In this document: piece by piece, positions 2,979 to 10,378 of the stretch
Layout: every line of letters begins with the position of its first letter
Position numbering within the stretch: position 1 is the first letter of the stretch
From: Trueperaceae bacterium
GTDB taxonomy: Bacteria; Deinococcota; Deinococci; Deinococcales; Trueperaceae
Assembly: GCA_023954415.1 (NCBI GenBank)
Contig: JAMLIB010000001.1
Coordinates: 328,001-392,000, forward strand
Length of the DNA: 64,000 nucleotides
Direction of reading: 5' to 3'
The notes under the pieces: generated by a model
The model's input: the letters and a program-made list of their open reading frames with translations, nothing else
What the model was told of the DNA's origin: nothing
Database searches by the model: none
Position numbers and translations under genes: made by a program

Positions 2979-3697
2979 GCGGCTCCCGCGTGCGCGGCGG
3001 CCGCGAAGCTGCGCAGCTCCCGCACGTGGTACGTCACGTAGGCCTCGAGGAGCCCCCAGTGCCGGTCTCGGCGCGGCATCTCGGATGCGAGCGCTTCCGC
3101 CATGCCGCCGCTCACCAGCAGTCGCAGCTCCCCGACCTCTGCCGCCGTGAGGGCAGGCCCGCTCCGGTCGCGGTCGCATGTCAGGCCGCCGGCGGCCACG
3201 TCGAGGGCGACGAGCGGCGCCGGCGTGCCGCAGGCCACGCACGCCGCCAAGCGCGGGGCAAGACCGGCCACGCCGAGGAGGCGCCAGGCGTAGAGCAGCG
3301 CGACGAGCTCCGGGTCGTGGTGGGAGGCGAGCCCCCGCAGTCCGGACGTGAGGTAGTCGTAGACGCGCGCTTCCAGGTGGACGTCGACCGTCAGGGCGTC
3401 GGCGAGCTCGCACAGCAGGTGGGCGTACGGGTAGGTGTTCGTGTCGCTCAGGCCCGGCAGGGCGCCGTTGAGCTGCACTTGCGTGAGGAGCGCCAGGTCC
3501 TCGTCCTTACGCCGGTAGAACTGCACCGTAACGTCGTGGAAGAGGGAGAGGCGGCCGACGTTGCCTCCGGGCAGCGTGCCCTTGCGCGCGACGGCCCGCC
3601 ATTTGCCCAGTCGGCCTAGGAGCGTGACCACGAGGTCGCCGGACGGGAGCGCGTGCCGCTTGATGACGACCCCGTCGGTGACGGTGTAGCGCCTCAT
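2975..3697 (-). CDS. recO: DNA repair protein RecO
   Basis: A 240-residue RecO: an N-terminal OB-fold domain (MRRYTVTDGVVIKRHALPSG onward), then a helical domain with the CVACG half of a zinc finger near residue 151. The second half reads GGLTCDRDRSG, so only three of the usual four cysteines are visible. RecO loads RecA on SSB-coated DNA together with RecR, which is also in this window. It lies 9 bp after the cupin stop and overlaps plsY by 4 bp. Confidence 0.92.
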   Translation of the reverse strand: MRRYTVTDGVVIKRHALPSGDLVVTLLGRLGKWRAVARKGTLPGGNVGRLSLFHDVTVQFYRRKDEDLALLTQVQLNGALPGLSDTNTYPYAHLLCELADALTVDVHLEARVYDYLTSGLRGLASHHDPELVALLYAWRLLGVAGLAPRLAACVACGTPAPLVALDVAAGGLTCDRDRSGPALTAAEVGELRLLVSGGMAEALASEMPRRDRHWGLLEAYVTYHVRELRSFAAAAHAGAA

Positions 3698-7735: not shown

Positions 7736-8047
7736 TCAGAGCATGCCTCCCAGACCCTGCATGCCGCCCATGGCGGCCCCCATCTCGCGCTCCTGCAGCT
7801 CCTTGGCCCGGCGTTGCGCCTCGCCGACGGCCGCCGTGACGAGGTCCTCGAGCATCTCGACGTCCGCCGGGTCGACGATCTTCTGGTCGATGCGGACCTT
7901 CGTCACGGTCCCGTCGCCCGTGGCCTCGACGCGTACGAGGCCGGCGCCTGCCGAGCCCTCCACCGTCATGGACGCGAGACGCTCCTGCGCTTCCGCCACC
8001 TTCGCCTGAGCGCGCTGCGCTTCTTTCATGAGCTTCTGGATGTTCAC
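7736..8047 (-). CDS. ybaB: YbaB/EbfC-family nucleoid-associated protein
   Basis: A 103-residue DNA-binding protein of the YbaB/EbfC family: an N-terminal helix (NIQKLMKEAQRAQAKVAEAQERL), a central beta-sheet with VRVEATGDGTVTKVRID, a C-terminal helix and a Met/Gly-rich tail. Start is GTG at 8047 with GAGGAG five bases upstream; the frame is open further but without a ribosome site. It sits between dnaX and recR as in most bacteria. Confidence 0.93.
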   Translation of the reverse strand: MNIQKLMKEAQRAQAKVAEAQERLASMTVEGSAGAGLVRVEATGDGTVTKVRIDQKIVDPADVEMLEDLVTAAVGEAQRRAKELQEREMGAAMGGMQGLGGML

Positions 8048-8105: not shown

Positions 8106-8750
8106 TCACTCGTCGCTACCGGGAGGGTCCGGCTCTTCGGCGCCATCGTAACCGGCTCCGTACTCCTCGGTCGTTCCCGCCGCTTCCTCCGCCTGCTCGC
8201 CCGTCGCGGCGACCGGCCTGAGCGGGCTCACTTCGAGGACGCGCCCGGGGAAGAGCTCCTGCAGCCTGGCGAACGCCCTGCCCTCCACCGTGTCGCCGGC
8301 GACGTGGGTCGGGGACGTGGGGGCGCCGCGCGCGGCGCCCCCACGCTGCCTGCCGCCGCTCCGCTCGCGAGGGGCGTGGCGTTCGGGGCGCGCGCCCTGC
8401 CCTTCCTTGGCACCGGCTGCCTGCCCCTCGGTGTCCGGCCGGTCGTCCGCGGTGCTCGCCCGAGCGACCTCGTCCTGACCGAAGGCCGGCTCGGCGGAGT
8501 CCGACCATAGGTCGCCCGTGGCGCCGCCGAACGACGACTCGACGTCCTCGGGTATGAAGTCCTCGATCGCGCGCGGCGCGGCGGCCTGCGCGGGCGGCAC
8601 GGGCGTCGCCGGGGCCGTGGGCTGCGCCGCTTCTGGCGGCGCGGGTTCCGGGGTCGCTACCTCGTCGGCGCCTTGCGCGCGGGCGCGAGGGCGCGGCTCT
8701 TCATCGGTCGGTAGCTTCGGCGGAGCGGTCGGCGCGCGCTCCGTCAGACT
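8106..8750 (-). CDS. dnaX: -1 frame extension of dnaX (long form C-terminal tail)
   Basis: Immediately after the A7 tract of dnaX, the -1 frame stays open for 214 codons. It would extend DnaX from residue 543 to about 757 residues. The tail starts SLTERAP, is rich in Pro, Ala, Glu and Asp, and contains a more ordered segment with RLQELFPGRVLEVSP before ending PDPPGSDE. No ribosome site or good start exists inside: the nearest candidate is a GTG at 8600 with nothing upstream. This favours access by frameshifting or RNA-polymerase slippage. It takes up the space before ybaB. Confidence 0.75.
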   Translation of the reverse strand, partial: SLTERAPTAPPKLPTDEEPRPRARAQGADEVATPEPAPPEAAQPTAPATPVPPAQAAAPRAIEDFIPEDVESSFGGATGDLWSDSAEPAFGQDEVARASTADDRPDTEGQAAGAKEGQGARPERHAPRERSGGRQRGGAARGAPTSPTHVAGDTVEGRAFARLQELFPGRVLEVSPLRPVAATGEQAEEAAGTTEEYGAGYDGAEEPDPPGSDE

Positions 8751-8756
8751 TTTTTT
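8721..8756 (-). other. dnaX slippery heptamer and downstream hairpin (programmed frameshift signal)
   Basis: On the minus strand the zero-frame codons are CCA AAA AAA GTC TGA, i.e. the heptamer A AAA AAA (8750-8756). Six bases later comes a 7-bp stem, CGGAGCG (8737-8743) with CGCTCCG (8721-8727), and a 9-nt loop. This is the layout of the bacterial dnaX -1 frameshift cassette. A run of seven A can also cause transcriptional slippage, as reported for Thermus dnaX. Confidence 0.8.
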
Positions 8757-10378
8757 GGACCACCGCCCGGCCCGTCGACTTCGATCTCGAAGGCCGCGCC
8801 CGCGACGTCCGTCACCAACGCCCTCAGCTCTTCCAGGCGCATGAGGAGCTGCTTGTGGTGGAACTCGTTGGTGTCGGGGTAGGCGATGCGGATGGTCCTG
8901 CCGACGATCTCGACCCGCGCGGGCGCCAGGAACGCCTTCAGCCGCACGTCGGCCTTGCTGCGCACGGCGTGCCAGGAGAAGCTCGCTTCGCCCTGAGTGC
9001 GTTCGGGCTGCCTGGGCCTGGCGTCCGCGGCGGCGGTCGGTTCGGCGGTCCGCCTCGGCCCGGCCGGCGCCGCGGCTCGCGCGTCGTCGGTCGGCGCACG
9101 TTCGTCCGGTGCGCGTTCGTCCGGTGCGCGTTCGTCCGGCGTCCGGCCGTCCGGCGTCCGGCCGTCCGGCGTCCGGCCGTCCAACGTCTGGTCGCCCGGC
9201 GCCGGTTCCTCGGGCGCTCGCGCGGCCCGAGCCGCGACGCTTCGCGCCGCGGTGTCCTCCGGCGCGTGTGCCTGCGGGACGGCGCCCCTCCCGGAGAGGG
9301 TGGGTTGCTCGTCCGACGCCGTCCTGGCCGCGAAGGCCGCCGGCACGTTGCCGCGCAGCGCGTTACGCGCCTTGATGAGCGCCACCTCGAGCGAGTAGAG
9401 GTCGTCGTGGCGCACGAACCGCTCCTGCTCGTCGTCGAGCGCGTGCAGCAGGCGCAGGAGGTCGTCCTCGGCGAGCTCGAGCCACGGCGTTCCCGCTAGG
9501 CGGGCGTGCAGCGCGTCCCTGAGCGTGCGTGCGAGCTGCTCGGCCAGCGTCCGTGGCGCGAACCCGGCGCGGTAAAGGCCGGACGCCTGCTCGAGCAGCC
9601 CCTGCAGGTCGCCCTCGGCGAGCGCTTCCGCCATGGCTCTCAGACGCTCATGCGGAGGCAGACCGAGGGCGTCCTCCGCGCGTTGCAGCGTGATTGACTC
9701 GCCGCCTGCGAGGAGCCTGTCGAGGAGCGACTCGGCGTCGCGCATGCCGCCGTCGGCGCTCCGCGCCACCAGCTGGAGCGCCGCCGTCTCCGCCGCCACC
9801 CCGGCGGCGGCGCTGAGCCGCGCCAGCTTGCCGACGATCTCCCCGTCCGTCAGGCGCCTGAAGCGGAAGTGCTGGCACCGTGACAGCACGGTGGGCGGCA
9901 GGCGCTCCGGCTCGGTGGTGGCGAGCACGAACAGCAGGCTCGGCGGCGGCTCCTCGAGCGTCTTGAGCAGCGCGTTCGCCGCGGCCTTGCTCAGCATGTG
10001 GGCCTCGTCGAGGATCCACACGCGCGTGCCGCCCCTGATGCTGGAGAGCATGGTCCGCTCCCGCAGCTCGCGCACGTCGTCGACGGAGTTGTTCGAGGCG
10101 GCGTCCATCTCGATCACGTCCGGATGGCTGCCTGCTTGGACGAGGCGGCACGATTCGCATACGCCGCACGGACGCTCGCCTTCGCCGGCCTCGCAGTTGA
10201 CCGCCATCGCCAGCAGGCGCGCGCTCGTCGTCTTGCCGACGCCGCGCGGCCCGGAGAAGAGGTACGCGTGGCCGACACGCCGGCGCCTGATCGCGGCCGT
10301 GAGCACGTCCTTGACGTGGTCCTGGCCGACGACCTCGTCGAACGTTACGGGCCTTGCGCGCTGGTAGAGGGCGGACAT
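8744..10378 (-). CDS. dnaX: DNA polymerase III clamp-loader subunit DnaX (short form)
   Basis: The 544-residue zero-frame product of the clamp-loader ATPase. Walker A is GPRGVGKTT (residues 43-51), followed by a cysteine zinc module (CEAGEGERPCGVCESC), Walker B (VWILDEAHM), sensor 1 (LATTEPERL) and the lid/collar domains to about residue 360. A low-complexity linker with pentapeptide repeats follows, then a folded C-terminal domain (about 440-535). Translation stops two codons after an A7 slippery tract. A TAGATT -10 lies 11 nt before the ATG. Its neighbours are ybaB and recR. Confidence 0.96.
   Translation of the reverse strand: MSALYQRARPVTFDEVVGQDHVKDVLTAAIRRRRVGHAYLFSGPRGVGKTTSARLLAMAVNCEAGEGERPCGVCESCRLVQAGSHPDVIEMDAASNNSVDDVRELRERTMLSSIRGGTRVWILDEAHMLSKAAANALLKTLEEPPPSLLFVLATTEPERLPPTVLSRCQHFRFRRLTDGEIVGKLARLSAAAGVAAETAALQLVARSADGGMRDAESLLDRLLAGGESITLQRAEDALGLPPHERLRAMAEALAEGDLQGLLEQASGLYRAGFAPRTLAEQLARTLRDALHARLAGTPWLELAEDDLLRLLHALDDEQERFVRHDDLYSLEVALIKARNALRGNVPAAFAARTASDEQPTLSGRGAVPQAHAPEDTAARSVAARAARAPEEPAPGDQTLDGRTPDGRTPDGRTPDERAPDERAPDERAPTDDARAAAPAGPRRTAEPTAAADARPRQPERTQGEASFSWHAVRSKADVRLKAFLAPARVEIVGRTIRIAYPDTNEFHHKQLLMRLEELRALVTDVAGAAFEIEVDGPGGGPKKV
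9092..9196 (-). repeat. 15-bp tandem repeat inside dnaX
   Basis: About seven 15-bp units encode a DERAP/DGRTP-like pentapeptide array in the linker of DnaX between the AAA+/collar region and the C-terminal domain. Two sub-families are visible: three identical copies (9137-9181) and two identical copies (9107-9136) with diverged flanks. Identical neighbouring units suggest recent copy-number change. Confidence 0.9.

Follow-up and report, generated by a model that had tools for sequence, protein, structure and literature searches.

As shown in Table 1, the 64,000-nucleotide stretch of DNA analyzed here (the window), part of a 3.2-Mb draft genome of a Trueperaceae bacterium, carries a dnaX gene on its minus strand whose reading frame is broken near its end. 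The zero-frame codons at the break are GGT GGT CCA AAA AAA GTC TGA, and the run of seven A that they contain is the sole A7 on both strands of the 64 kb (0.07 expected by chance). Without a shift the product has 544 residues, and after a -1 shift it has 543 + 214 = 757. An earlier note on this DNA had described these codons, the A7, a 6-nt spacer, a 7-bp stem, a -1 frame open to position 8106 and products of about 757 and 544 residues; all of this is confirmed in the window sequence. The gene order dnaX-ybaB-recR-topA, with neighbors named from their translations, is the usual one. Since ybaB/ebfC starts so soon after the tail stop, the -1 tail accounts for the interval between the two genes.

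Table 1. Features at the dnaX break, in window coordinates
Feature	Position	Strand	Remarks
dnaX zero frame	8744..10378	-	544-residue short (gamma-like) product; NF011524 DnaX, 675 bits
Shine-Dalgarno-like stretch GGGCGGTG	8761..8768	-	4 nt before the heptamer; weak to moderate in the window species
Slippery heptamer A_AAA_AAA	8750..8756	-	window sequence, family comparison
6-nt spacer GTCTGA with zero-frame stop (8744-8746)	8744..8749	-	one sense codon plus stop in 28/28 family genes
Hairpin	8721..8743	-	5' arm 8737-8743 CGGAGCG, loop 8728-8736, 3' arm 8721-8727 CGCTCCG
-1 frame tail, 214 residues after the shared Lys-Lys, then TGA (8106-8108)	8106..8756	-	completes the 757-residue tau-like product
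Tail motif 1, IPEDVESSFGGATGDLW in the window	8505..8555	-	[LI]PxDFW in most relatives
Tail motif 2, LQELFPGRVLEV	8229..8264	-	likely counterpart, judged by eye, of the sister-family tau C-terminus and of E. coli TLRRFFDAELD
ybaB/ebfC, next gene	7736..8047	-	GTG start after GAGGAGAA; 58 nt past the tail stop

In GC-rich DNA, long open frames such as this -1 frame arise easily. No Rfam model matched at the shift site. The site gains its significance from the comparison of relatives, through the layout of 28 genes, the register of the stem and the motifs of the tail. A dnaX match was present in 36 genomes of the family; 28 of the genes are readable and show the break, including that of the closed Truepera radiovictrix genome, 4 are continuous, and the rest are cut by contig ends. 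The heptamer is A_AAA_AAA in 15 of the 28 genes, A_AAA_AAG in 11, G_GGA_AAA in one (L023) and A_AAA_ATA in one (L008), and the pattern X_XXY_YYZ in zero-frame register is found in all except L008. Runs of A6-A7 are present in nearly all family genes other than L020, whose A_AAA_AAA sits within A9. The codon register before the spacer is identical in all 28, the shift is always -1, and the zero-frame stop lies exactly one codon past the heptamer in every gene, with TGA, TAG and TAA all in use. As the identity of the stop varies while its position is fixed one codon later, termination itself is under selection. The -1 frame is open for 78-290 codons. The +1 frame was also considered as the extension and was rejected, being open for 2-290 codons and lacking the tail motif at the expected place. 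In L008 (2851-3180 and following) the shift site reads AAA AAA ATA, an unusual and poorer heptamer with a rare Ile codon at the A site.

Downstream of the heptamer, the window stem comprises 7 bp closing a 9-nt loop and begins after 6 nt, inside the 5-9 nt range expected of an E. coli dnaX-type site. Alone, this hairpin is not significant against shuffles (z -1.0). Across the family, a perfect 6-bp stem at the fixed register is found in 24 of 28 genes, whereas 160 control positions gave 3.4 on average (sd 1.6) and 9 at most; a perfect 7-bp stem at the same register is found in 19 genes, compared to a control mean of 1.4. When the offset was scanned, perfect 6-bp stems started 6 nt after the heptamer in 21 of 28 genes and 7 nt after it in 20 of 28, with only 2-4 at offsets 0-5. 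The 32-nt segment at the hairpin has a median rank of 0.9% by folding energy among all such segments of its own gene (28 genes). Within the genus of the window, the fourth stem pair is A-U in L001, L003 and L005 and G-C in L004 and L006, a paired change, and elsewhere in the family C-G or G-U occurs as well; since the 3' arms in this pair comparison were taken as the best complement within 30 nt, it is biased to pairing, and the position control is the real test. The stem of L036, GCCCGG/CCGGGC, is wholly different, and weak or rearranged stems are seen in L020, L021 and L031.

Upstream of the heptamer, the 8-mers that end about 6 nt before it pair most strongly with the 16S anti-Shine-Dalgarno sequence, with a family mean of -5.9 kcal/mol compared to -0.7 kcal/mol for background, and this position matches that of the E. 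coli dnaX element. The stretch in the window is equaled in strength by 8% of background sites. Strong stretches are present in many relatives, for example GGGAGGTA and AAGGGGGA, and pairing is weak in L013, L019, L033 and L036. The conserved GPGG peptide could be a partial source of this signal; in genes with a different linker peptide the element is still above background (median fraction 0.064, KS p 6e-6).

The two predicted products differ in their C-terminal ends. The zero-frame DnaX of the window exceeds the NF011524 cut-off of 601 bits and thereby matches the DnaX N-terminal equivalog. The short product contains the ATPase and clamp-loader domains, followed by a domain like tau domain V (PF20964, residues 469-533), which scores 21.4 bits in the window, below the cut-off of 26.2, and above the cut-off in 5 of 6 relatives. 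By sequence profile this region matches the Taq tau C-domain 4iqj_M (E 3e-8). Its predicted fold matches domain V of E. coli tau (5fku_E, 5fkv, 2aya) with probability 0.97-1.00, TM about 0.5 and E 0.04-0.15; the model used for this search has a pLDDT of 73.6, and the structural matches are individually weak and together consistent. The linker before the domain V-like part holds 15- and 30-nt tandem repeats at 9092-9205 (peptide DGRTPDGRTPDERAPDERAP), whose length varies among relatives.

The -1 tail of the long product is low-complexity. A motif of FPG or FAG type, typically LQxLFPGRV, is found in the tail of 27 of 28 family genes, and the LQELFPGRV segment, which the earlier note had taken to be patterned and under selection, is indeed its most conserved part. 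Substitutions in the tail favor the third position of the -1 frame, and together with the retained motifs this pattern indicates that the tail evolves as coding sequence. The exception, L035, has motif 1 (ELPAGFW), but its -1 frame lacks the FPG-type motif; the LQ-like LLQAVFPGRV lies downstream in another frame, which is likely due to a further indel (from 1545), probably of assembly, in a proline-rich repeat of this draft genome. The tail profile had no match in Pfam, NCBIfam or PDB. In E. coli, tau lacking its last 25 residues keeps the domain core and loses alpha binding, and residues 626-636 are required (PMC11470591). These residues, TLRRFFDAELD, resemble RLQELFPGRVL in hydrophobic spacing, a likeness seen by eye in a short motif. 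The short form keeps the domain V core; by this analogy it would lack the C-terminal polymerase-binding motif, and the tail may have a role in binding polymerase alpha.

Sister families show what occupies the same codon elsewhere. At the homologous position in 42 of their genes there is A9 in 32, A8 in 7 and A10 in 3, and the long product is mostly in frame. No hairpin was found at the matching place in these A8-A10 genes, where the median rank of the segment is 0.76 and none is below 0.05; the Trueperaceae median is 0.009. The zero-frame C-termini of sister-family genes carry a like motif, as in QLFGGRLRKFY and SLFKARLRQVW. Five genes of another, Thermus-type family (L047, L051, L063, L064, L072) have A9 or A10 with the short product in the zero frame, and the reversed arrangement therefore also occurs with slippage-type runs.

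Within Trueperaceae, the genes L014, L025, L027 and L034 have no shift site, and their zero frame is continuous through the site. The tail motif lies in the continuous frame in L014 and L034, and motif 1 does so in L027 (G079). In L025 and L027 the contig ends short of the last motif, so that the continuous frame can be followed only through the site and, in L027, motif 1. L027, which is a close sister of L030 in the N-terminal DnaX tree, keeps the downstream repeat and hairpin sequence (near 3162), with its A-run replaced by CCTAAGAAAAGC. Genes with the frameshift are found on all deep branches of the family in this tree, and the four continuous genes stand at separate tips. The simplest reading would be that the frameshift is ancestral to Trueperaceae and was lost four times. 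Relatives with a single continuous frame, which the earlier note had named, where they also lack the A-run, as grounds for giving up its proposal, do exist; they are read as losses beside 28 genes that keep the break. The comparison of dnaX 3' ends that it had suggested shows the heptamer of A-run type, the hairpin and the -1 tail to be conserved (28 genes; 6-bp stem in 24/28, motif in 27/28).

These findings suggest, with a probability of roughly 85%, that a programmed -1 ribosomal frameshift makes the tau-like DnaX of Trueperaceae. The layout and its conservation, the frame, the hairpin, the Shine-Dalgarno-like element and the homology of the tail can be seen in the genomes; the shift in the cell and its efficiency are what we infer from them. 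Ribosomes would reach A_AAA_AAA (A_AAA_AAG in relatives), where the hairpin 6 nt downstream and the upstream Shine-Dalgarno-like pairing would hold them, and some would slip by -1. Those that do not slip would add one residue and stop, giving a 544-residue gamma-like DnaX with ATPase, oligomerization and domain V-like core. Those that slip would read 214 residues more, giving a tau-like DnaX of about 757 residues with a disordered tail and two conserved motifs. The last motif may be the counterpart of the C-terminal segment through which tau binds polymerase subunit alpha in E. coli, and the shift ratio would set the number of clamp-loader arms able to bind polymerase.

The tRNA complement complicates a simple E. 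coli picture. tRNA-Lys(CUU) has been argued to make A_AAA_AAG a poor shift site (PMC5009743). Most family genomes have tRNA-Lys(CUU) beside tRNA-Lys(UUU), and a single tRNA-Lys reading both AAA and AAG, which is a proposed aid to slipping at A_AAA_AAG and not a defining rule, is therefore absent from most of them. In G096, G097, G100 and G102, no match to tRNA-Lys CTT was found at up to 1 mismatch. The idea that A_AAA_AAG is confined to genomes without tRNA-Lys(CUU) was not upheld, as G083, G084, G095 and G099 use this heptamer and carry the CUU tRNA. In the window's own genome (L108, L132), both tRNA-Lys anticodons, CTT and TTT, are present.

The main competitor of the ribosomal reading is transcriptional slippage, in which RNA polymerase would add one A (or lose two) and standard translation would then yield the long product. 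This would be the Thermus mechanism with the two frames in exchanged roles. The earlier note had held both mechanisms possible, and an A7 could indeed host either. In its favor, 42 sister-family genes have A8-A10 at the corresponding codon, slippage at that place is proven for Thermus dnaX according to PMC1088944 (citing Larsen 2000), Antonov et al. 2013 (PMC3711429) favored it for reversed genes, and L020 has A9. However, a run of eight to nine or more A is confined to L020 within the family; the window has A7, A6-A7 is nearly family-wide, and the six-A runs and the G_GGA_AAA of L023 are below the usual slippage length. Moreover, under slippage there is no reason to expect a strict reading-frame register, or a hairpin whose spacing is constant, and the A8-A10 genes lack the hairpin. 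What favors the ribosome is the combination of a strict register, heptamers that are short or mixed, the fixed-spacing hairpin and the Shine-Dalgarno-like element, so that slippage appears improbable and the two mechanisms do not stand on an equal footing. The claim of a programmed -1 shift giving the longer product is supported by all comparative tests.

The remaining explanations have still less in their favor. A real shift might serve to regulate the amount of DnaX or the translation of downstream ybaB-recR instead of a fixed ratio of two subunits; the tail ends tens of bases from ybaB, which would bring shifted ribosomes up to that gene, but the conserved tail motifs indicate that the long product itself matters, and the site coincides with the tau/gamma boundary known in Thermus, which makes this quite unlikely. 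It is more doubtful again that the tail is a separate protein, made by reinitiation or from an internal start past the stop of the short product. GTG or TTG stands at the third or fourth -1 codon in six genes, whereas the first start in the remaining genes is at codons 22-135 with no conserved start, and the tail motifs form the C-terminus of DnaX itself in sister families and fused relatives. That the true gene is one continuous frame, broken by decay or by an error of sequencing or assembly, can practically be dismissed. The break does lie at a homopolymer run, and a few relatives (L014, L025, L027, L034) are continuous; yet the same break recurs across 28 genomes, which come from many assemblies, some of them closed, run length differs, the break also occurs where the heptamer is not a homopolymer, the stop varies in identity at a constant position, and the tail evolves as coding sequence. 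The homopolymer error that the earlier note had envisaged as a refutation is excluded by these 28 genomes, three of which are single-contig (G108, G084, G092), and by the heptamers A6G and GGGAAAA.

The closest known systems are E. coli dnaX, Thermus dnaX and published two-ORF dnaX genes. E. coli dnaX likewise has an upstream Shine-Dalgarno-like element, a heptamer of A_AAA_AAG type, a stem-loop, a -1 shift and two products (PMC3711429, Fig. 1), and its A_AAA_AAG AGTGAA followed by a CCGGC-type stem has the identical 6-nt spacing. Unlike in Trueperaceae, where the shift would yield the long product and the short form has the domain V core, the E. coli shift yields the short product, cut before domains IV-V. 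The Thermus thermophilus site, where the A-run slips during transcription according to PMC1088944 and PMC5009743, is at the homologous position just past the tau C-domain, belongs to the same class and also gives two DnaX products. There the run is A9 and the long product is in the template frame, whereas Trueperaceae have A6, A7 or GGGA4, a hairpin and the long product in the -1 frame.

The reverse logic relative to E. coli that the earlier note had remarked on therefore holds for the layout and not as a new category, since the reversed layout is already published (PMC3711429, PMC5009743). Antonov et al. 2013, as far as their account in PMC3711429 goes, described 17 dnaX genes in which tau needs recoding, mainly with A10 (9 of 12 poly-A cases) and explained by slippage. 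In their two-ORF genes, as here, the zero frame stops right past the site, and the frame that encodes tau is reached by a shift of -1 in terms of the DNA. A 2016 review listed ribosomal candidates for tau by frameshift, naming Chlorobium phaeobacteroides (PMC5009743), and in these two sources only one ribosomal candidate among the reversed two-ORF genes is mentioned, as unpublished. The main text of PMC3711429 does not mention Truepera, and a search for Truepera and dnaX in open-licence papers found none on a frameshift in Truepera dnaX. New would be a ribosomal cassette shared by a whole family and a change of mechanism at one site. We lean slightly toward the reading that a single dnaX recoding site has switched mechanism within one bacterial class, with sister families carrying at the same codon either a run at which RNA polymerase slips (A8-A10, tau in frame) or a ribosomal cassette (A6/A7 or GGGA4, hairpin and Shine-Dalgarno-like element, tau in the -1 frame). 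The Trueperaceae cassette would be of separate origin from that of E. coli, placed elsewhere in the gene, opposite in output, and able to work with A_AAA_AAG despite tRNA-Lys(CUU).

Trueperaceae would thus supply, replicated by nature across a whole family, an essential long clamp-loader subunit whose synthesis hinges on frameshifting. Since some relatives lack the site and sister families use another mechanism, it becomes testable why bacteria keep two forms of DnaX, and the contrast at the same codon allows a test of what makes RNA polymerase slip in one case and the ribosome in the other. The short form keeps the domain V core and lacks the tail alone, and the difference between tau and gamma would thereby narrow to a polymerase-binding peptide. 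Additionally, automatic annotation truncates DnaX in Trueperaceae.
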